From positions 1 to 28,715 of IMG/VR virus record IMGVR_UViG_3300037502_001357: a DNA stretch of 28,715 nucleotides; one strand, written 5' to 3'. The position numbers were made by a program, and so were the translations under genes. Of this stretch, positions 1,954 through 23,682 are shown one piece after another; the stretch's first letter is position 1, and every line of letters starts with the position of its first letter. The DNA is from a virus. The notes beneath the pieces are model-generated. The model was not told the DNA's origin and made no database searches. It worked only from the letters and a program-made list of their open reading frames with translations.

Positions 1954-2248
1954 CGGGCTCCTTCGTTTTGATAATTACCAACGGCTCGGTTGTCTTGAGC
2001 GTTGTCTCGTTTGTCTGCTTCGGCTTGCCGTATGCCCTGTCGAGCAACAGCTCGGCTGCGCGTGTATCGCCCTTCGCAGCTCGGGCGCGTATCGCTTTGA
2101 GTATCGCTTCGGCTGCTGTCATGCCGTCCTTCTCTTCGCCCAATACATCAGCGAGCAATACATGAAGCTCGGGCAGCTTGCGAGGCCGTCCGTTCGGGTT
2201 TAGTGTTTCACCCTTCTTCATCTTTCTCCCATCATGCGGAAATGCCAT
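1946..2248 (-). CDS. DUF5681-like protein, candidate small terminase
   Basis: About 100 residues from the ATG at 2248 (MAFPHDGRKMKKGETLNPNG). An alternative ATG at 2221 begins exactly at the conserved part, MKKGETLNPNGRPRK, the DUF5681 signature (KKG-x-NPxGRPR). The rest is helical: a KAIRARAAKGDTRAAELLLD segment, then a basic DRAYGKPKQ turn. DUF5681 proteins lie next to large terminases in phages and are plausible DNA-binding small terminase subunits; here only the 41-residue microgene separates it from TerL. It overlaps the end of the ParB-methyltransferase gene by 17 nt if the 2248 start is used. Confidence 0.75.
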   Translation of the reverse strand: MAFPHDGRKMKKGETLNPNGRPRKLPELHVLLADVLGEEKDGMTAAEAILKAIRARAAKGDTRAAELLLDRAYGKPKQTNETTLKTTEPLVIIKTKEPDA

Positions 2249-3422
2249 ACGTCTGTATTTCGTCTGTTTTATACGGCTGCCCATTGCGCTTGATTCTAAG
2301 CGTAGGGTCGAGCTTTATCATGCGGTCAATTATAACTTGGCAATACTTCGGGTCAAGTTCCATGCCGTAGCATTTGCGTTTAAGTTGGTGGGCTGCTACC
2401 ATAGTAGAACCGCTCCCAAGAAAAACATCAATAATAATATCTTTTTTTACTGAAGAATTATTCATAAAATATTCTACCAAACCTATCGGCTTCATTGTAG
2501 GATGTTCTTTATTATTTTTAGTTTTTTCAAATTCAAATACTGAAGTTTGCTTTCTATCACCGTACCATTTATGGGCTGCTCCCTCTTTCCATCCATAATG
2601 TATTATCTCGTGAATTGGATGATAATCAAATCTTGATAAATTTAATGATGGTTTTTTCCAAACAATGGCTGATTGATACTTCCAAAGCCATGCATTTACA
2701 TATTTTGATTGTTCTAAGCCAATTGGACTTGCAGCATATATTGGGCATCCTTCTTTAATGAATAAATCCATTGTGGTAAATACATTTAATAGAAACTCCT
2801 CAAAATCATCCCTTCTTTCATCGTTTTGTATTTTTCTTCCTTTACTTTCATATCCTATCCCATACGGCGGGTCAGTAAACACCATATCCGCCTTTTGCCC
2901 ATCCATCAACTTCGCAACCGCATCGCTATCCGTACTATCCCCACAAAGCAACCGATGCTCACCTATCTCGAACAGGTCGCCCAGCACGATGTCGGTTTGT
3001 ATTTCATCGGGTATCTCGTAATCGTCTTCAACTGCTTCGAGGTTCTGCTCGGGTTCGAAGTCGGGCACATCCAAGCCCCACGCATCGAGCTGCTCAGTAT
3101 CCCATTCGGTTTGAAGCATCGCCCAATCCCATTCGCCGCCGCTTACATTGTCTTTAATTATAAATTCGCGCTTTTGAGCCTCTGTGAGCTCGCTTGCCTT
3201 TATAACGTGCACTTGCTTTAGCTTTGCTGCTTTGCATGCCTTAAAACGCATATTACCGCCTAAAATCACGTTGTTTTCGTCCACCACTATCGGGCGGTAC
3301 TTTAGCATCTCGGGGAACTCCTTAATCGATTGAACGAGCTTATCGAACTTCTCATCCTTAATGATGCGCGGATTGTTCGGGTTTACCGTTAGCTCGGATA
3401 TGTTTATCAATTCTGCTTTCAT
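2232..3422 (-). CDS. ParB-like domain fused to N6-adenine/N4-cytosine DNA methyltransferase
   Basis: Protein of 396 residues with two modules. The N-terminal ParB/sulfiredoxin-like domain (about 1-95) carries VILGGNMRFKAC (52-63) with the GGxxR pocket. The C-terminal methyltransferase has DPPYGIGY (184-191, catalytic motif IV) before DVFLGSGST (332-340, SAM-binding FxGxG); this order is that of the beta class. Such fusions are common in phages and mobile elements and probably modify phage DNA against restriction; the target sequence cannot be read from the gene. The start at 3422 overlaps the preceding 46-residue gene as ATGA. The stretch encoding about residues 185-330 (roughly 2430-2860) is clearly more AT-rich than either flank, suggesting mosaic origin. 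Confidence 0.93.
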   Translation of the reverse strand: MKAELINISELTVNPNNPRIIKDEKFDKLVQSIKEFPEMLKYRPIVVDENNVILGGNMRFKACKAAKLKQVHVIKASELTEAQKREFIIKDNVSGGEWDWAMLQTEWDTEQLDAWGLDVPDFEPEQNLEAVEDDYEIPDEIQTDIVLGDLFEIGEHRLLCGDSTDSDAVAKLMDGQKADMVFTDPPYGIGYESKGRKIQNDERRDDFEEFLLNVFTTMDLFIKEGCPIYAASPIGLEQSKYVNAWLWKYQSAIVWKKPSLNLSRFDYHPIHEIIHYGWKEGAAHKWYGDRKQTSVFEFEKTKNNKEHPTMKPIGLVEYFMNNSSVKKDIIIDVFLGSGSTMVAAHQLKRKCYGMELDPKYCQVIIDRMIKLDPTLRIKRNGQPYKTDEIQTYGISA

Positions 3423-4756: not shown

Positions 4757-5067
4757 GCAGGAATATATTCTGATTTTATTTTTTCGCAAAATTGATAATC
4801 GCTTAAATAATCTTCAGTAAGTTCTATTTGTTCACCATTAAGCTCAAATGAAAAATAAATCTTTTCTCCGCTTTTTCTCATTTGGACTTTATCCATGTAG
4901 TATGTTTTGCCTTTTTCTGCAATAACTTTTCGCCCTGAAGTATAATCTACAATATTGCATTTAAGCATAACATTTTTGTCTGACAAAAGATTTACAATTT
5001 CATTATACATTTCTTGATAATGCCTTTCTCGTTTATATTTATCAAGCAAGTATTCTATCATATTCAT
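4753..5067 (-). CDS. Hypothetical protein, 104 residues, AT-rich gene
   Basis: Begins MNMIEYLLDKYKRERHYQEM; a second ATG at 5061 is possible. The gene is markedly more AT-rich and more Lys/Glu/Tyr-rich in product than its neighbours, suggesting recent acquisition. The C-terminal two thirds look like antiparallel strands with charged turns. It sits 11 nt downstream of the helicase stop and is coupled by ATGA to the next gene. Function unknown. Confidence 0.75.
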   Translation of the reverse strand: MNMIEYLLDKYKRERHYQEMYNEIVNLLSDKNVMLKCNIVDYTSGRKVIAEKGKTYYMDKVQMRKSGEKIYFSFELNGEQIELTEDYLSDYQFCEKIKSEYIPA

Positions 5068-5078
5068 ATTATCTTAAA

Positions 5079-6491
5079 TTAGAAAGGATTAAAATCAAAA
5101 GTTTCATTCGGCTGCATTGCCTTTGGGCTACCGTTTAAGCTCGGCTCGGCTTCAGGCATCGGCAAATAAGAGCTGCCACCACTCGAGCCTGTATCGTGAA
5201 AGCTCGTGAGCGTGGTGTTATGTTTGAAGCGCACCTCACCAGTTGAGCCTTGCCGGTGCTTCTCGAATAAGTAAAACACATCGGAGCTGTAAGGGTTGCC
5301 AGCTTCATCCATCAATCCGTAGTATTCAGGTCGATAAACAAACATAACCGTATCGGCATCCTGTTCAATGCTACCCGATTCGCGTAGGTCTGAAAGTATA
5401 GGTCTTTTATCGGCGCGTTGCTCAACTTGTCTACTCAATTGCGCGAGTGCGATAATTGGTATGTTAAGCTCCTTTTGAGCGGCTTTTAATGTGCGGCTTA
5501 TTTCGGCTACTTCAGCCTCGCGATTACCGCCTCTGAATCCCTCGATTGTCATTAATTGAAGATAGTCAATGATTGCCCACTTGCAATTGTTCTTACGTGC
5601 CTCGCGCCGCATTATGCGTATCGCCTCATGCACCCCACATCGCGGCTTATCGTAGATTGTGATGGGTAGCTTCTCAACTAACCCGATCGTGGTTTCAAAT
5701 GCGTGTAGCTCGGGCTGCGATAGGTTGCCATCACGTAGGCGTGCGCTGTTTATTGAATCATTTGCGTGTTGTAGTATGAGCCGCTGGCATAGCTGGCTTT
5801 GATTCATCTCGAGGTTGAAGTATATGCCCGGCTCATTGAACTGGCAGGCGTGGTATAGTGCGATGGCGGTCTTACCCATCGATGGGCGGCCTGCAATGAT
5901 TATAAGCTCGGGATGGAAGCCACCAGTAAATCGGTTAAGTGCTGCGATGCCGGTATTCAATCCGCTTGTTTTGCCGCTTTGATGCAACGCGGCGCGGCGG
6001 TAATATGCCTGCCGCTCTTCGCTTGTTAGCTGTGGCGTTGTAATGATGTTATCGGTAGGGCTGCCATTCTCGATCAGTGTGTTAAGCCGTTTAATGATGT
6101 TTACGGCTGTTTCGCTTCCGCTCGATTCCTTTCCGAGCCCAAGTGCTTGCTCGGTTAGTATGGTGTTTATATTGCGTTTGATGTGTTCATCTTTGAGGAT
6201 TGCGATGTATTGGTTTATGGGTTCGGAGTAACTCAGCTCATTGCCCCACTGTGTGACCGCTGCAATCTGTTGCGGTGTTAGTGCTTTGTTCTTTGTCGCG
6301 TATTGCCCGAAGGTAACAAATGTCGGCTGCTTTCCGTCCTTCATAATCGCATTAATGAGCTTAAATGTTTTAAGCGCGGTATCATCGGAGAAATAGTCTT
6401 CGATAAGCTGCGGCGCGATTTCTCGGTAGTTATCATCGCCATTAAGGCAAAGAAACATTAGGGCTTGTTCGATTTTTGGGATTGAGGTCAT
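5079..6491 (-). CDS. dnaB: Replicative DNA helicase, DnaB-like
   Basis: Protein of 470 residues with the two-domain DnaB layout. A helical N-terminal domain (about 1-110) precedes a linker and a RecA-like motor: Walker A GRPSMGKTA (201-209), an EMN element near 228-230 (FNLEMNQSQL), Walker B WAIIDYLQLM (305-314), then SDLRESGSIEQDAD (367-380), a hallmark of DnaB motif H4. It unwinds the phage fork as a hexamer. The C-terminus is a Ser/Gly/Pro-rich tail ending NETFDFNPF, probably disordered and possibly a protein-docking tip. The start at 6491 lies 12 nt after a GC-rich hairpin (6504-6522). With the initiator-like gene at 6812-7465 it forms the replication module. Confidence 0.96.
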   Translation of the reverse strand: MTSIPKIEQALMFLCLNGDDNYREIAPQLIEDYFSDDTALKTFKLINAIMKDGKQPTFVTFGQYATKNKALTPQQIAAVTQWGNELSYSEPINQYIAILKDEHIKRNINTILTEQALGLGKESSGSETAVNIIKRLNTLIENGSPTDNIITTPQLTSEERQAYYRRAALHQSGKTSGLNTGIAALNRFTGGFHPELIIIAGRPSMGKTAIALYHACQFNEPGIYFNLEMNQSQLCQRLILQHANDSINSARLRDGNLSQPELHAFETTIGLVEKLPITIYDKPRCGVHEAIRIMRREARKNNCKWAIIDYLQLMTIEGFRGGNREAEVAEISRTLKAAQKELNIPIIALAQLSRQVEQRADKRPILSDLRESGSIEQDADTVMFVYRPEYYGLMDEAGNPYSSDVFYLFEKHRQGSTGEVRFKHNTTLTSFHDTGSSGGSSYLPMPEAEPSLNGSPKAMQPNETFDFNPF

Positions 6492-7869: not shown

Positions 7870-8265
7870 TCATCGTAAGTATTCATCAATTATGTCAATG
7901 CACTCGTTAAAGCCTATGCCGAACACAGCAAGATAGCCAACGGCATTGAGTCGATTCAGCATTGCGTGTTGCTCTTCGAGATGCTGATCGGCGTACAGCG
8001 TTCCATCGAGCCGTTGGATGCGTTCGCCGTCTTTCTTAATCTCGATGTATAGCCCGGCATAACCGTTCGATGGTTGGCAGATGAACAGGTCAGGGTAGCC
8101 TCGATGTGGGTTGAGCCCCTTGTGCGATTTTGCTTGCCCGATGCTCATCTTAACCCCTGCGCTGAAGTCAAACCGCCATATTACATTCGGGTATTTGAGC
8201 TTCATAAACTTTGATATGGCAAAGTAGATGTCGGTTTCTTTATGGGCGTTGCGTTTGGCTTTCAT
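7870..8265 (-). CDS. VRR-NUC family PD-(D/E)XK nuclease
   Basis: Protein of 131 residues, the usual size for stand-alone phage VRR-NUC proteins. The nuclease core is visible: an N-terminal helix with E11 (HKETDIYFAI), GYPDLFI with D59, and GLYIEIKKDG with E75 and K77. A further helix (DQHLEEQHAMLNRLNAVGY) follows as in the family. VRR-NUC enzymes cut branched or structured DNA and can act as Holliday-junction resolvase substitutes. It overlaps the C5-methyltransferase gene by 26 nt, so the two are co-expressed; a restriction partnership is possible but a recombination or packaging role is the simpler reading. Confidence 0.9.
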   Translation of the reverse strand: MKAKRNAHKETDIYFAISKFMKLKYPNVIWRFDFSAGVKMSIGQAKSHKGLNPHRGYPDLFICQPSNGYAGLYIEIKKDGERIQRLDGTLYADQHLEEQHAMLNRLNAVGYLAVFGIGFNECIDIIDEYLR

Positions 8266-9433
8266 ATTGCTCTATTGCTTTTAAAATTTGGTAAACCACT
8301 TGAGGCACTATTGCATTGCCTCCGGCTTTGATTGACTCGTTTCGCCATTTAGAAAAGGTAATAGAGTCCAATCGGGCGGAAAGCCCATCATTTCGAGTAC
8401 GAACTGTGGGTTCAGTTGTTGGGAAGTCTCCCCAGTCTGTTGCGTGTGTTTTCCAAGCATCACCGGCAGATTGTTCAATTGGTCTGCCCTGCTTTTGCCG
8501 TCCTTTCTTGTCATTCCATTTGGTGATTGACCGCTTTTGCAATCCCTTGTTGTTGGTGTCGGCAGCATTTGATTCTTTACCAATTGTGGCAGGCTCAATT
8601 GTAGATTGATTCCCTTTTCTGCCCATTTTTCTTTTCGCGCTTGATATTTCTCCGGAGTTTGGGCATCCTTGAAATCCCTGCTGTTCGGTGTCGGCAACAT
8701 CCCCATCGCCATTGCCCGGCAAAGGGTCACGCTGTGCATCGAGCCATCCTTGACTTGGCTGCTCTTCATCGTTGCCGTTGCATTGGTTGAGTCCATTGCC
8801 GTTGGGGTCGGGAGCATGCCGTGAAATTGCAGATGGTCTAATATTGAGTTTGGTCTGGCTTCCCCATTCGCTCGGCTGAACATTGATGTTGCTCCAGTTT
8901 CTTTCAATGCTTCTACTCTCTCCGGATGTTCCCTTTGAATTGCTGTTGGTGTAGGCAACAAACCAAACTCGGTCTCTTCGGTGCGGTGCGTTGACGGCAC
9001 AAGCTGGAAGTACATACGGTTGTACTTCGTACCCTTCAGCTTCCAGGTCAGCCTGCACCTCGTGGAAGACCAACCCTCCTGACCAATTAACAAGCCCGAG
9101 AACGTTTTCGCCCACAACCCAACGCGGCTGAATTTCTCGAATCGCTCTAAGCATTTCCGGCCAGAGGTGTCGCTCATCGTCTTTTCCAAGTCGCTTGCCT
9201 GCCATTGAATAGGGCTGGCATGGGAATCCCCCAGTGAGGATGTCAATTCGTCCTCGATGAATAGTGAAATCTGTCTTTGTGATGTCTTCATAAGATATTG
9301 CATTTGGCCAATAATGTTTTAATACTCTTTGCGCGAAGGCGTTCCACTCGCAGTGAAATATGTTTTCCCATCCCATCCACTCTGCGGCTAAATCGAAGCC
9401 ACCGATGCCGCTGAATAAGCTTCCGTGTGTCAT
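8240..9433 (-). CDS. dcm: DNA (cytosine-5) methyltransferase
   Basis: Protein of 397 residues. Motif I LFSGIGGFD (6-14), catalytic motif IV GGFPCQPYS with C72, motif VI GENVLG (108-113), motif VIII APHRRDRVWFVA (149-160) and motif X GNAIVPQV (372-379) are all present and in order. It transfers methyl groups to C5 of cytosine in phage DNA, most likely to evade host restriction. The region between motifs VIII and X (about 160-350) is low-complexity and holds repeated TN/DTN/DPNG elements where a target-recognition domain is expected. The same DNA is open for 331 codons in another frame (see 8308-9303). The start at 9433 makes an ATGA overlap with the upstream gene. Confidence 0.95.
   Translation of the reverse strand: MTHGSLFSGIGGFDLAAEWMGWENIFHCEWNAFAQRVLKHYWPNAISYEDITKTDFTIHRGRIDILTGGFPCQPYSMAGKRLGKDDERHLWPEMLRAIREIQPRWVVGENVLGLVNWSGGLVFHEVQADLEAEGYEVQPYVLPACAVNAPHRRDRVWFVAYTNSNSKGTSGESRSIERNWSNINVQPSEWGSQTKLNIRPSAISRHAPDPNGNGLNQCNGNDEEQPSQGWLDAQRDPLPGNGDGDVADTEQQGFQGCPNSGEISSAKRKMGRKGNQSTIEPATIGKESNAADTNNKGLQKRSITKWNDKKGRQKQGRPIEQSAGDAWKTHATDWGDFPTTEPTVRTRNDGLSARLDSITFSKWRNESIKAGGNAIVPQVVYQILKAIEQYESQTQRP
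8308..9303 (-). CDS. Nested alternative-frame ORF inside the cytosine methyltransferase gene
   Basis: A 331-codon ORF lies wholly inside the methyltransferase gene, in a different frame of the same strand. It begins MQYLMKTSQRQISLFIEDEL, contains four LPTPT/LPTPN elements (LLPTPTAI, MLPTPTAMD, MLPTPNSRD, MLPTPTTRD) and ends LNPQFVLEMMGFPPDWT then LLPFLNGETSQSKPEAMQ. From memory, near-identical sequences (LPTPTAxD repeats; LNPQF...MMGFPxxWT) are annotated as proteins in other Bacteroidetes genomes, and their DNA is the alternate frame of similar methyltransferases: ADTN-type codons read one base off give LPTPT. Either it is a conserved dual-coding gene or a shadow kept open by the constraint on the methyltransferase. 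It has an ATG but no separate promoter that I can see. Confidence 0.4.
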   Translation of the reverse strand: MQYLMKTSQRQISLFIEDELTSSLGDSHASPIQWQASDLEKTMSDTSGRKCLERFEKFSRVGLWAKTFSGLLIGQEGWSSTRCRLTWKLKGTKYNRMYFQLVPSTHRTEETEFGLLPTPTAIQREHPERVEALKETGATSMFSRANGEARPNSILDHLQFHGMLPTPTAMDSTNATATMKSSQVKDGSMHSVTLCRAMAMGMLPTPNSRDFKDAQTPEKYQARKEKWAEKGINLQLSLPQLVKNQMLPTPTTRDCKSGQSPNGMTRKDGKSRADQLNNLPVMLGKHTQQTGETSQQLNPQFVLEMMGFPPDWTLLPFLNGETSQSKPEAMQ

Positions 9434-13055: not shown

Positions 13056-13703
13056 TTATTTTTGTGCTCGCATTATCGCAGCTCCTATGATTACACCGAA
13101 CCCAACCTTTGCCGCGCTTGTTTGCCACCACTTCTTGCGTGGTTCGGCCACTATTATGTTGCTCATTCCGGTAACGCTTACGTATGGGTTATCGATGCCG
13201 AGCCTTACAACCTTATCGCGCTTACGCGATAGGAAGCCTTTACGCAGCGTATCTCCGATTGCAACGGTATAAGACACCGGAATGATAATTGAATCCAACT
13301 GAAGCCGCCCTAAGCGGTTAATCTGCCCACCTATCTCGAGCCACTTACCCGGCCGATGGAAGTAACGCGGAAGGCGAAGGTGAGGAAAGCTATCGATATA
13401 CACCGTTTCACCCAGTTCGAATTGCGTTACCACCTTGGTCCGCGTTTGGTACCTTACCACCACTTCAGGCTCACGCAATTCCAAGGCTCTGAGCTTGGTG
13501 CCTGCCGCTGCGAGCTGCACACCTTGGGAGTACATCTTTGCGCTGTCTCTCGCAATGCGAATCGTGTATTCATTATTCAGCGAATCGAGATACATCGCAT
13601 TGCTTTCGGCCTCGCCTAATGCCGCGCAAGTGCGCATTAATAGCAGCAAAAGAAACAGGCATATTGCAAATAGGCTTAACGTGCTGATGTTGCTTTGCTG
13701 CAT
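13056..13703 (-). CDS. Membrane-anchored protein of the lysis region (spanin-like candidate)
   Basis: Protein of 215 residues with an N-terminal membrane helix (ISTLSLFAICLFLLLLLM, about 6-23), a periplasmic-type helical stretch (about 30-80), a beta-rich middle, and a second hydrophobic segment near the C-terminus (VGFGVIIGAAIM). A resemblance to DUF6808-type phage proteins is possible. Placed after endolysin and holin-like genes, it could be an inner-membrane spanin or other lysis accessory; this is inferred from topology and context. It overlaps the upstream 64-residue gene by 28 nt. Its stop is about 55 nt before the early promoter. Confidence 0.75.
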   Translation of the reverse strand: MQQSNISTLSLFAICLFLLLLLMRTCAALGEAESNAMYLDSLNNEYTIRIARDSAKMYSQGVQLAAAGTKLRALELREPEVVVRYQTRTKVVTQFELGETVYIDSFPHLRLPRYFHRPGKWLEIGGQINRLGRLQLDSIIIPVSYTVAIGDTLRKGFLSRKRDKVVRLGIDNPYVSVTGMSNIIVAEPRKKWWQTSAAKVGFGVIIGAAIMRAQK

Positions 13704-13870
13704 AGTATAAGTTCGTTTAATCGTTTGAGGTAGGTGCTCTTATCGCGCAGCTCGTTGAGCAATATATCGCCAGCCACCTTAATCGGCATTGATTTCTCGG
13801 CTATGTAAATTGCCAGCACCTTCACAAGTCGCTCATCGCATTCGCAATCGGTCGCTGGTAGGTTACTCAT
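13676..13870 (-). CDS. Small helical protein coupled to the PAS-HisKA gene
   Basis: Protein of 64 residues beginning MSNLPATDCECDERLVKVLA. Predicted helical with a CEC pair near the N-terminus; no receiver or HPt signature. The ATG overlaps the PAS-HisKA stop as ATGA, so the two are translationally coupled and may work together, for example as a small regulator of the kinase-like partner. Function unknown. Confidence 0.75.
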   Translation of the reverse strand: MSNLPATDCECDERLVKVLAIYIAEKSMPIKVAGDILLNELRDKSTYLKRLNELILCSKATSAR

Positions 13871-14433
13871 AATTGCCGCGTTGCTTTCTTGACTAACAAC
13901 CTGATGACATTGTCGAGCTTTTCGACACTATCTTCGAGCATCTTCATAACTCCATCGCGTTCCTGATCGGTTGCCCACGTATGCTCGTTTATCATCTTCA
14001 CCAAGCCGCCGATCGATGTCAATGGCTGACGAAGTTCGTGCGATAAGGTGAAGCGAAACTCTTCCAAAAGCATCTTTTGCCGTTCGTATTCGTGGCTGCT
14101 TATTGAAGTAACATCGACCAATTGAATGCCGATGAAGTGCAGCATATCGACAATGGCATAAACATTCCACATGTTGTACCGCTCGGAGCTTATCTTCTGC
14201 TTTGTCTTTGCGTATGCCCGAATCGGCTCAGGTGATTTGCTTTGCGCCTTGCGAATTGCGGCAAGCAGCTCATCGCGGTCGCTGTCTTGCGCTGCGATGT
14301 CGAGTATATTGCCGGGCTTTATGTGGCTGGAGTACTCTTTGAACAGCTCATTCGTTGCGACAATGTTGCCATCCCTGTCGGTGATCACATAGAAGAGGTC
14401 AATACTTGACTCAAGGATGTGCAGCGATGCCAT
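13867..14433 (-). CDS. PAS domain plus HisKA dimerisation domain, without the kinase ATPase domain
   Basis: Protein of 188 residues. Residues about 8-110 form a PAS sensor domain: IDLFYVITDRDGNIVATNEL is the classical PAS opening, and FIGIQLVDVTSIS closes it. Residues about 118-185 form a HisKA four-helix unit with the H-box TLSHELRQPLTSIGG (phospho-acceptor H132). It then stops: there is no N, G1 or G2 box, so no ATP-binding catalytic domain. It could form dimers with host histidine kinases, accept or drain phosphate, or act as a PAS-gated decoy. The start at 14433 lies 4 nt after a TATCTTTG box, so the message is probably leaderless. Sequence recognition is firm; role is inference. Confidence 0.88.
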   Translation of the reverse strand: MASLHILESSIDLFYVITDRDGNIVATNELFKEYSSHIKPGNILDIAAQDSDRDELLAAIRKAQSKSPEPIRAYAKTKQKISSERYNMWNVYAIVDMLHFIGIQLVDVTSISSHEYERQKMLLEEFRFTLSHELRQPLTSIGGLVKMINEHTWATDQERDGVMKMLEDSVEKLDNVIRLLVKKATRQL

Positions 14434-14437
14434 GCTG

Positions 14438-14471
14438 CAAAGATACGTTAAACCGAACGTAAATCACTCAA
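14438..14471 (-). promoter_or_regulatory. Promoter for the PAS-HisKA gene
   Basis: -7 box TATCTTTG (14445-14438), with TTG (14471-14469) 23 bp upstream at the long end of the usual spacing. Only 4 nt separate the box from the ATG, implying a leaderless mRNA. Confidence 0.55.
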
Positions 14472-14840
14472 GAAAGCACGCCATGCAGGTACGCATCCGA
14501 GCGCATATTTGATGGTAAGCAACATCGTGAAGGTAAGCACGATGCCGTTTGCAAGTATATCGTAATTCATAGGCGTTGGCATTTCAGGCTCATTTCTTAC
14601 AGCGTGAGTTTTCGGGATGTAATACGTGGCGGCTGGGTACAAAGATACATCACACGGCTGAATCGTGTCGAATGCTGTTAGCACTTTCGGCTTTGGCGGT
14701 TGCGCCATCACTGCCTGAAAGCTTTCGCGGTTGGCTTGCTGAAATGAGGTATCGGCTTCGGGAGCATGCCAGCTCATGGTATCGATGTTGAGCTTGCTGT
14801 GGCGCACTACCTTGATGGTGTCTCTACGAATCTGTTGCAT
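14448..14840 (-). CDS. Hypothetical protein with one C-terminal membrane segment
   Basis: Protein of 130 residues, beginning MQQIRRDTIKVVRHSKLNID. Residues 1-90 are polar and Pro-rich (MAQPPKPKV, NEPEMPTPM); residues about 95-117 are a membrane helix (ILANGIVLTFTMLLTIKYAL). It overlaps the holin-like gene by 17 nt and belongs to the lysis block. It may be a holin partner or antiholin, but the sequence does not settle this. Confidence 0.75.
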   Translation of the reverse strand: MQQIRRDTIKVVRHSKLNIDTMSWHAPEADTSFQQANRESFQAVMAQPPKPKVLTAFDTIQPCDVSLYPAATYYIPKTHAVRNEPEMPTPMNYDILANGIVLTFTMLLTIKYALGCVPAWRAFLSDLRSV

Positions 14841-15030
14841 CGCTTTTGGCTTTTGGGATATATCCTGCGGCTATTAGTGCTGCAATGATGGCTGTTAATG
14901 TTTCGGCTGTTATCACTTTAAAGATTAGCAAGAAGATGGATACCAAAATCATCAGCGAACCGATTGTGCTACGCCAGTGCTTAACAATCACATCGAGTAT
15001 TCGCCTTGGTTTGGTAGGTCTTCGTGCCAT
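14824..15030 (-). CDS. Holin-like small membrane protein
   Basis: Protein of 68 residues: basic N-terminus (MARRPTKPRRILDVIVKHWR), a strong hydrophobic segment IGSLMILVSIFLLIFKVI (23-40), a short turn, and a second hydrophobic helix (about 44-57, LTAIIAALIAAGYI), then a polar tail. Size, two-helix topology and the position next to the endolysin fit a holin that perforates the inner membrane. No sequence family can be confirmed by eye. Confidence 0.72.
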   Translation of the reverse strand: MARRPTKPRRILDVIVKHWRSTIGSLMILVSIFLLIFKVITAETLTAIIAALIAAGYIPKAKSDATDS

Positions 15031-15076: not shown

Positions 15077-15535
15077 TTAAAGATTACAAAGTGAGAAATA
15101 GAGATTAGCCTCTTCCCTGCGCCTGTTGGTAAGCCCTTGCAGTGCCTTACCCCCAGCCTTGTTCCATTTAAGGAACTCATCGAGGATGCTCGGGTCGGCG
15201 TTGTTTACCTTTGCCTTTTTCAACAGCGTAGATTTGATTAAAGCACCAGTGCCTACGTTATAGGCGAAGCTCACAAGCGCATCGAATTGGCATTGATTGA
15301 TATTCGGTAGGTGCTTATTGACTGCTTGTTCGTATGGCTCAAGGGTAGCGAGCAGCAATTGTGTTGCTTCCTTTTCGCCGCTCAACTTTTCGCCGAGCAT
15401 CACCTTCTTGCCGTTCGGGTAGCGTGTCGAGCCGTAGCCTATGGTCGGCACTCCGGCGGGGCATAGGTAGCTTGAGAGCCTCAATCCCTCGTACTTCTTA
15501 ATCAGATTAAGACCGAGAATTGAGGTGCTGCGCAT
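15077..15535 (-). CDS. Endolysin, GH24 lysozyme
   Basis: Protein of 152 residues, normal for T4/P22-type lysozymes. The catalytic signature E-x8-(D/C)-x5-T is complete: E16 in KKYEGLRLSSYL, C25 and T31 in CPAGVPTIGYGS. Downstream, QCQFDALVSFAYNVGTGAL and the C-terminal NRRREEANLY helix are typical of GH24. It cleaves the peptidoglycan glycan chain. The C-for-D variant is common in phage enzymes. There is no signal peptide, so it depends on a holin. The ATG overlaps the preceding gene as TAATG. Confidence 0.95.
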   Translation of the reverse strand: MRSTSILGLNLIKKYEGLRLSSYLCPAGVPTIGYGSTRYPNGKKVMLGEKLSGEKEATQLLLATLEPYEQAVNKHLPNINQCQFDALVSFAYNVGTGALIKSTLLKKAKVNNADPSILDEFLKWNKAGGKALQGLTNRRREEANLYFSLCNL

Positions 15536-22737: not shown

Positions 22738-23558
22738 TTGGTAAAGAATCTTGGGTTAACACCTTTGATGCGTTTATCTGCTTGACTTTCGAGCGGTGGA
22801 ATGATAGCCTGCCCCGGTCTTGGCACACGCTGCCCAGCCGATGGGTTCTTTTGAATGATGCCCGCTGCGGTTGCCTCTTGCAACAGCACATCGGATAGAT
22901 TCAGAAATGAGCCTGCCTTCTCTTTGCTTTTGAGCCGCTCGCCGCTCTTCTTATCTTTCACGAATATATTGCCATCGTCCTCTAAATCGATTGCGTACTT
23001 CTCGCCGATGGTAGCCTTAAAGCCTTTGATGGTGAACTCATTCACAGATGGGTCGAGCTTTATTGCTGAAAGCTCCTTCTCAAATGTGTGGTTAATCTTT
23101 GTGAGCTTCTGCTCTTCGGCCATCTTCTGCTTGAACTGCTCGAACTGATTGATTGCTTCTTGGCGTGCCGTGTCAATCTCGGTCAGTTTGCGCTCAAGTG
23201 ATTTGTGCTTTTTCTCCCATTCCTTTACCAGCTCTTCGCTGCCCGATTTATCGGCTCGTTGCTGCCACTCTTCTTGCTGCTTTTCATAAGCCTCGCGAGC
23301 ACGTTCGGATGCCATGCGTAATACATCTTGCGCCTTCTTGTCCTTGAAATCTTCTTCAGTAAGCGTAACTCCGAATGGCTCAAATGCTCGTTTAGCAACG
23401 TGAGCGATAGTGCCATTAATTTTTCCGAGCTTTTCGTTTAGCTCCTTGCTGTTTACCCAGTTCTCCTGAAATTTCTCTTTTGCTTCCTCGAGGCTCTCGG
23501 CTTCGTTTAGGTTTAGGAAGTTCACTATCTCCAGTGCTTCCTCCGGTTTGATCGGCAT
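22734..23558 (-). CDS. Capsid scaffolding protein (GP20-like)
   Basis: Protein of 274 residues. An N-terminal helical region (MPIKPEEALEIVNFLNLNEA) and a long charged coiled coil (about 75-165, for example EEWQQRADKSGSEELVKEWE) precede a small globular part (GFKATIGEKYAIDLEDDGNI) and a basic Pro-rich tail ending RIKGVNPRFFTK. The high Lys/Glu content, coiled coil, and position between portal/MuF and the capsid gene are those of scaffolds, which organise capsid assembly and leave the head. The family name is a judgement from layout. Confidence 0.82.
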   Translation of the reverse strand: MPIKPEEALEIVNFLNLNEAESLEEAKEKFQENWVNSKELNEKLGKINGTIAHVAKRAFEPFGVTLTEEDFKDKKAQDVLRMASERAREAYEKQQEEWQQRADKSGSEELVKEWEKKHKSLERKLTEIDTARQEAINQFEQFKQKMAEEQKLTKINHTFEKELSAIKLDPSVNEFTIKGFKATIGEKYAIDLEDDGNIFVKDKKSGERLKSKEKAGSFLNLSDVLLQEATAAGIIQKNPSAGQRVPRPGQAIIPPLESQADKRIKGVNPRFFTK

Positions 23559-23682
23559 ATAGTATAGGGGTGTTAATTGGTTGCAATGTTAATTCCTTTG
23601 CGCCCTTCTTTGTTAGAAGGTAATCGGCCACCAAATCAGAGGCTTTGATTATTCGGCCATCGCTTAAAATTAGGTGTCTCAT
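23416..23682 (-). CDS. 88-residue ORF, leaderless, overlapping the scaffold start
   Basis: The frame starts MRHLILSDGRIIKASDLVAD with its ATG 4 nt after a TACCTTTG box. The first about 41 residues lie in DNA not used by any other gene and look like a compact domain (strand-helix-strand). The last about 47 residues (KPKRSREPRGSKREISGELG and on) overlap the scaffold in another frame and are basic and low-complexity. The N-terminal part is therefore credible; the overlap of 143 nt is unusual for this genome. A frameshift joining the N-terminal part to the scaffold is an alternative. Confidence 0.6.
   Translation of the reverse strand: MRHLILSDGRIIKASDLVADYLLTKKGAKELTLQPINTPILYADQTGGSTGDSELPKPKRSREPRGSKREISGELGKQQGAKRKARKN

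Follow-up and report, generated by a model that had tools for sequence, protein, structure and literature searches.

DHp-type dimers that pass phosphate on without making it are known in Spo0B and ChpT, both of which lack a PAS domain but retain a CA-like domain in degenerate form, and the phage protein described here (hereafter PAS-DHp) differs from them in this. In known kinases it is the turn of helix alpha-1 following the H-box that docks regulators. Kinases of the PhoR/PnpS type and ThkA of T. maritima (3a0r) share with PAS-DHp a PAS domain, a DVT joint, a signal helix, a DHp hairpin and an H-box of the form SHELRxPLT, but PAS-DHp is phage-encoded, is 188 amino acids long, lacks both an ATP-binding domain and a membrane segment, and has a Gln at the fourth position after the histidine (H+4). 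In the HisKA kinases that have been tested, kinase chemistry requires the Glu adjoining the His while phosphatase activity does not, the latter requiring a Thr or Asn at H+4 instead; the DHp domains of EnvZ and NtrB, when without CA, are able to act on their regulators, the phenotype seen in vivo being that of a constitutive phosphatase (PMC3510030). By analogy PAS-DHp would work most like one of these isolated DHp domains, as it too is a HisKA hairpin lacking CA, but those are laboratory fragments whereas PAS-DHp occurs naturally, is under selection and has a PAS domain of its own, a predicted phage promoter and Gln at H+4. A viral PAS/HisKA-like fold is also found in BFVD entry A0A6J5L941, annotated as a histidine kinase of an uncultured Caudovirales phage, but that protein has 528 amino acids compared to 188 and the identity is 17%.

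The window (the whole stretch of 28,715 nucleotides of viral DNA that was analysed) carries the PAS-DHp gene on the minus strand, from 14433 down to 13867, as an open reading frame of 188 codons with an ATG start and a TGA stop; the locus given by the first-pass annotation was confirmed by this frame, and the strand, which that annotation lacked, is minus. Its placing of the gene in the lysis block also stood, as the gene has the lysozyme, the holin-like gene and the transmembrane protein p130 on its upstream side and is followed by p64 and p215, in an order which is fixed across 114 representatives of the family, the gaps being contig ends. The features are as follows.

13056..13703, minus strand: p215, with an N-terminal hydrophobic segment, in a spanin-like position; its order after p64 is conserved
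13676..13870, minus strand: p64, a 64-aa three-helix protein (AF2 pLDDT 85) whose start overlaps the PAS-DHp stop (ATGA)
13867..14433, minus strand: the PAS-DHp (HisKA) protein gene, 188 aa (ORF, Pfam, AF2, Foldseek and 91 homologues)
13873..14097, minus strand: signal helix and DHp hairpin, helices 113-150 and 156-187 (AF2 model)
14038..14040, minus strand: codon of H132, the predicted phospho-accepting histidine, invariant in 91/91 and within the run 131-145
14104..14403, minus strand: PAS domain, residues about 11-110, with the DVT motif (107-109) at its end (AF2, Foldseek, conservation)
14438..14445, minus strand: TATCTTTG, predicted sigma-ABfr -7 box, 4 nt before the ATG (conservation and the spacing rule of PMC6847099)
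14448..14840, minus strand: p130, with a C-terminal hydrophobic segment, directly upstream of PAS-DHp; position conserved
14824..15030, minus strand: small membrane protein of 68 aa, holin-like (E 0.0035 in a weak match to a PHROG holin; position conserved)
15077..15535, minus strand: endolysin, a phage lysozyme (Pfam Phage_lysozyme, 2.3e-39; PHROG endolysin)

Neither p130 nor p215 matched a Pfam or PHROG family, and a fold search with p64 gave no significant match.

A Pfam search placed HisKA (PF00512) on residues 129-178 of PAS-DHp with 31.1 bits against a gathering score of 26.9, and 33 of 33 diverse family members matched it at E <= 0.1 (best 4e-9). By sequence the PAS domain is sub-threshold (sensory_box, 14.4 bits compared to a cut-off of 22.9), though it is clear in the predicted structure: an AlphaFold2 (AF2) model, for which the 33 family members were the input, gave a PAS-type beta/alpha order followed by a complete two-helix DHp hairpin (mean pLDDT 79), and the best PDB matches found by Foldseek were mostly LOV/PAS proteins, including LOV-histidine kinases. 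Structure prediction and fold search, both of which the first-pass annotation had called for, thus agree with its reading of a PAS sensor domain followed by an intact H-box with H132; this histidine lies in SHELRQPLTSIGG and is placed in the first DHp helix (113-150) of the model. A LOV photosensor was considered and rejected, as there is no photoactive Cys motif (NCRFLQ-type) and the protein contains no cysteine at all. The best sequence matches over the full length were to PAS-HisKA kinases, with ThkA at 5e-7 and the PhoR and PnpS models far below their cut-offs (the PhoR equivalog TIGR02966 reached 35.1 bits compared to 334.2). There is no membrane segment in PAS-DHp, and we propose it to be a soluble protein.

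PAS-DHp ends at the point where a kinase would continue into its ATP-binding domain. No HATPase_c match was found after the DHp hairpin, elsewhere in the window or in 36 related records (37 in total, with positive controls matching), and HATPase_c_2 and HATPase_c_5 were absent from 21 records, control genomes again matching; a stop with no ATP-binding domain had been noted from the letters, and the adjacent HATPase fragment that it was suggested to look for in related phages was in none of the 36. A split kinase with an ATP-binding half of these recognised families elsewhere in the phage is rejected by these searches, although a CA fold that they do not recognise may exist, and a phage-encoded cognate receiver is rejected by the lack of any receiver domain in 22 records in which control genomes matched. 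By fold and sequence, PAS-DHp is a PAS plus HisKA protein. It is not PhoR, nor does it count as a histidine kinase, since a search for the catalytic domain that defines these enzymes found none; having no ATP-binding domain, it cannot phosphorylate itself. Each of 21 records (21/21) has exactly one HisKA match above the cut-off. A second, sub-threshold HisKA-like match of 15-17 bits was seen in three of these records (G002:C1:7326-7442, G004:C1:34686-34802 and G005:C1:15553-15669), in a 228-codon frame approximately 2.5 kb downstream of the PAS-DHp gene, and these may be chance coiled-coil matches.

A scan of public viral contigs found at least 352 relatives of the gene, the best 80 per scan being read and the others counted. 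The fetched loci yielded 216 intact copies (some contigs twice), which reduced to 114 distinct genes and 91 distinct proteins, the latter 66-100% identical to the query, every one of 188 amino acids and all with a common stop position. H132 and E133 are invariant (91/91), and Q136 is present in 90 of the 91 with His in the remaining one. The longest invariant run among the 91 proteins is S131–V145, comprising the H-box and the turn after it, and shuffling the invariant positions 20,000 times reached this length in 58 cases. D107, V108 and T109, which form the DVT joint after the PAS domain, are conserved in the family, and the C-terminus (KKxTRQ) is nearly invariant, which is unlike a truncation scar. 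Median dN/dS is about 0.08 overall and similar in the PAS domain and both DHp helices, the only raised region being the looser hairpin loop (0.22). The earlier description of a clean frame with no sign of decay therefore holds, with an identical stop in 114 distinct genes, and neither of the findings that had been named as counting against it was made: H-box loss was seen in none of the 91 distinct proteins, and there was no full-length kinase in the related phages of which this gene could be a truncated artefact. The sole broken copy (L213, about 5000-5576) has a frameshift which puts the H-box in another frame, by mutation or assembly error, and the remaining incomplete copies run off contig ends.

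The invariant His with its adjacent Glu argues that H132 is used, and on sequence and modelling we lean, by a little, towards PAS-DHp having a host two-component phosphotransfer role in general. It would be a PAS-gated DHp protein that joins a host two-component system as its catalytically dependent partner in phosphotransfer, probably as a dimer formed through the DHp helices. The phosphate on H132 would have to come either from a trans-acting host kinase or from a host response regulator that is already phosphorylated, and it could then be re-routed, parked or removed. The PAS domain would set the active period through the DVT joint and signal helix, and the conservation of this joint supports gating by the PAS domain. 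Production would probably coincide with that of the lysis genes, from the gene's own predicted leaderless transcript. In principle, folding might be the only purpose of the invariant H and E. The first-pass annotation had proposed a PAS-gated decoy or phosphate sink that rewires a host two-component system, for instance to time lysis or sense host redox or envelope state; this is supported in part, by the complete and selected CA-less protein, its predicted leaderless promoter and its place in the lysis cassette, while the decoy or sink function, contact with a host kinase or regulator, and the timing and sensing roles stay suggestions.

A PAS-gated response-regulator phosphatase is an unlikely competitor, in which the free DHp dimer would dephosphorylate a host regulator with no need for H132 to be phosphorylated, so that a host stress or envelope regulon would be held off late in infection. 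The constitutive phosphatase phenotype of EnvZ and NtrB DHp alone in vivo (PMC3510030) would be in keeping with this, as would the freezing of the H-box and the following alpha-1 turn throughout the family, but the Thr or Asn required at H+4 is replaced by Gln in 90 of 91 proteins and by His in one, such that the HisKA phosphatase motif E/DxxT/N is not present, and the H+1 Glu, which is for kinase and not phosphatase chemistry, is invariant. Keeping the kinase Glu while exchanging the phosphatase Thr/Asn for Gln favours phosphotransfer over a plain phosphatase, and a plain phosphatase sink seems to account for the residue pattern less well than would a partner in phosphotransfer or a substrate phosphorylated in trans; Gln at H+4 is no proof against phosphatase activity.

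Slightly less probable again is a dominant-negative subunit, with mixed DHp dimers locking or rewiring one host kinase under the control of the phage PAS domain. The dimerisation hairpin is complete, the DVT joint and helix are conserved, and PhoR-type PAS-HisKA kinases are the best match for all members, which makes mixed dimers plausible, but the PhoR match is far under its cut-off and no close cellular HisKA was found in two genome-contig scans, which, using two short peptide patterns each, were narrow and so exclude close cellular relatives only. As to a cellular origin, a tblastn search of plasmids gave only 23-36% matches. No homologue was found in cultured phages at E 0.01, a divergent member as query giving only matches of E >= 0.3, and none was present in three phage records, namely Cellulophaga phi19:1 (its first 50 kb), Flavobacterium 11b and Polaribacter P12002L. 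All 33 of 33 members matched phrog_857 (function unknown; weak, best 4e-7) and phrog_10912 (kinase), and from sequence there may be distant DHp-like proteins in some cultured phages. An anti-phage defence protein was also considered and rejected, with no PADLOC match. The open-licence literature yielded no account of phage-encoded PAS-HisKA lacking the kinase domain, and a phage protein of this build was not found described in the collections or open-licence papers searched, the cellular searches being narrow.

We consider it improbable that PAS-DHp is reused internally, its dimer serving the holin, the spanin-like proteins or p64 as a scaffold or timer with no phosphate chemistry. Its place between p130/holin and p64/p215 is constant in contigs long enough to show it, and the p64 start overlaps the PAS-DHp stop by ATGA in 81 of 114 genes, but p64 is without this overlap in the other 33, and such a role would leave unexplained both the invariant His-Glu pair and the position of the longest run exactly at the H-box. 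The 64-residue gene that the first-pass annotation called coupled has this overlap in the window. Among the 33, 24 (24/114 overall) have a TAHHTTTG box of their own 3-4 nt before the p64 ATG, so that the p64 start apparently alternates between likely translational coupling and an apparent private leaderless promoter; in the window p64 starts at 13870 (minus), and the own-box form is seen in L147, L186, L218 and L244. A decayed or truncated host kinase, or an assembly artefact, to which the absent ATP-binding domain and the one frameshifted copy might point, is refuted by the common stop in 114 distinct intact genes, the conserved C-terminus and the dN/dS of about 0.08, across hundreds of independent contigs.

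The phosphotransfer partner that we favour would be expressed from a promoter of its own. In F. johnsoniae the -7 box has T-12, A-11, T-8, T-7, T-6 and G-5 and lies 4-5 nt from the start (PMC6847099). TATCTTTG ends 4 nt before the PAS-DHp ATG, where an own box had previously been noted, and with this spacing the F. johnsoniae rule predicts the A of the ATG as the first transcribed base, so PAS-DHp is predicted to be made from its own leaderless transcript. The box fits TAHHTTTG in 112 of 114 distinct genes, with TAACTTTA in the other two, and a comparison of 56 distinct upstream sequences shows no variation at -12, -11 and -8 to -6 and 96% conservation at -5, against values near 45% at most flanking positions. 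Related genomes each have one to five small genes that also carry TAHHTTTG, in most cases with a spacing of exactly 4 nt to the ATG; these include an 88-aa protein beginning MRHLILSDGR, proteins of 60-75 aa with GGxRxGAG, a 46-aa protein with MPLFQGDS and, in some, p64. This arrangement is expected by chance 0.02-0.1 times per strand and was observed well above that, and the recurrent box occurs at 23682 in the window (minus strand, ORF 23416-23682) and in genomes G003, G012, G022, G023, G026 and G028. Leaderless transcripts may therefore be used systematically by this phage group.

The phages of this group are all uncultured. PAS-DHp is present in seven of seven larger genomes compared, with 69-96% identity to the query, compared to 70-91% for the endolysin and 61-96% for the holin; being conserved like these and in a fixed place, it is a core gene of the group. 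The window's genes for DnaB helicase and the two DNA methylases lie at 2232-3422, 5079-6491 and 8240-9433, and they are absent or replaced in most related genomes while the structural and lysis genes are approximately 70-90% identical, which suggests exchange of a replication/modification block. Overlaps of 62-127 bp between the ends were found in four of six records tested, which are thus probably complete circular assemblies of 34-35 kb, and the gene maps of the related genomes are circularly permuted. The phages are probably virulent, as a search of 21 records turned up no integrase. The host is probably a member of the Bacteroidota, because of the promoter type and a distant similarity of terminase and portal to those of Flavobacterium and Polaribacter phages.

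More tentatively, we suggest that a virulent-phage lineage has made a CA-free PAS-DHp protein core to its lysis cassette, where host kinases or regulators would load or unload the phage histidine, informing the phage or blinding the host at the lysis decision. The gene is common in its phage group (at least 352 contigs), and no annotated cultured-phage relative was found. If our reading is true, PAS-DHp would be a naturally selected half-kinase, a sensor and phospho-acceptor wholly reliant on the signalling enzymes of another organism, and the natural equivalent of laboratory constructs that consist of an isolated DHp domain, and it would allow a direct test of phages plugging into host two-component networks during lysis.
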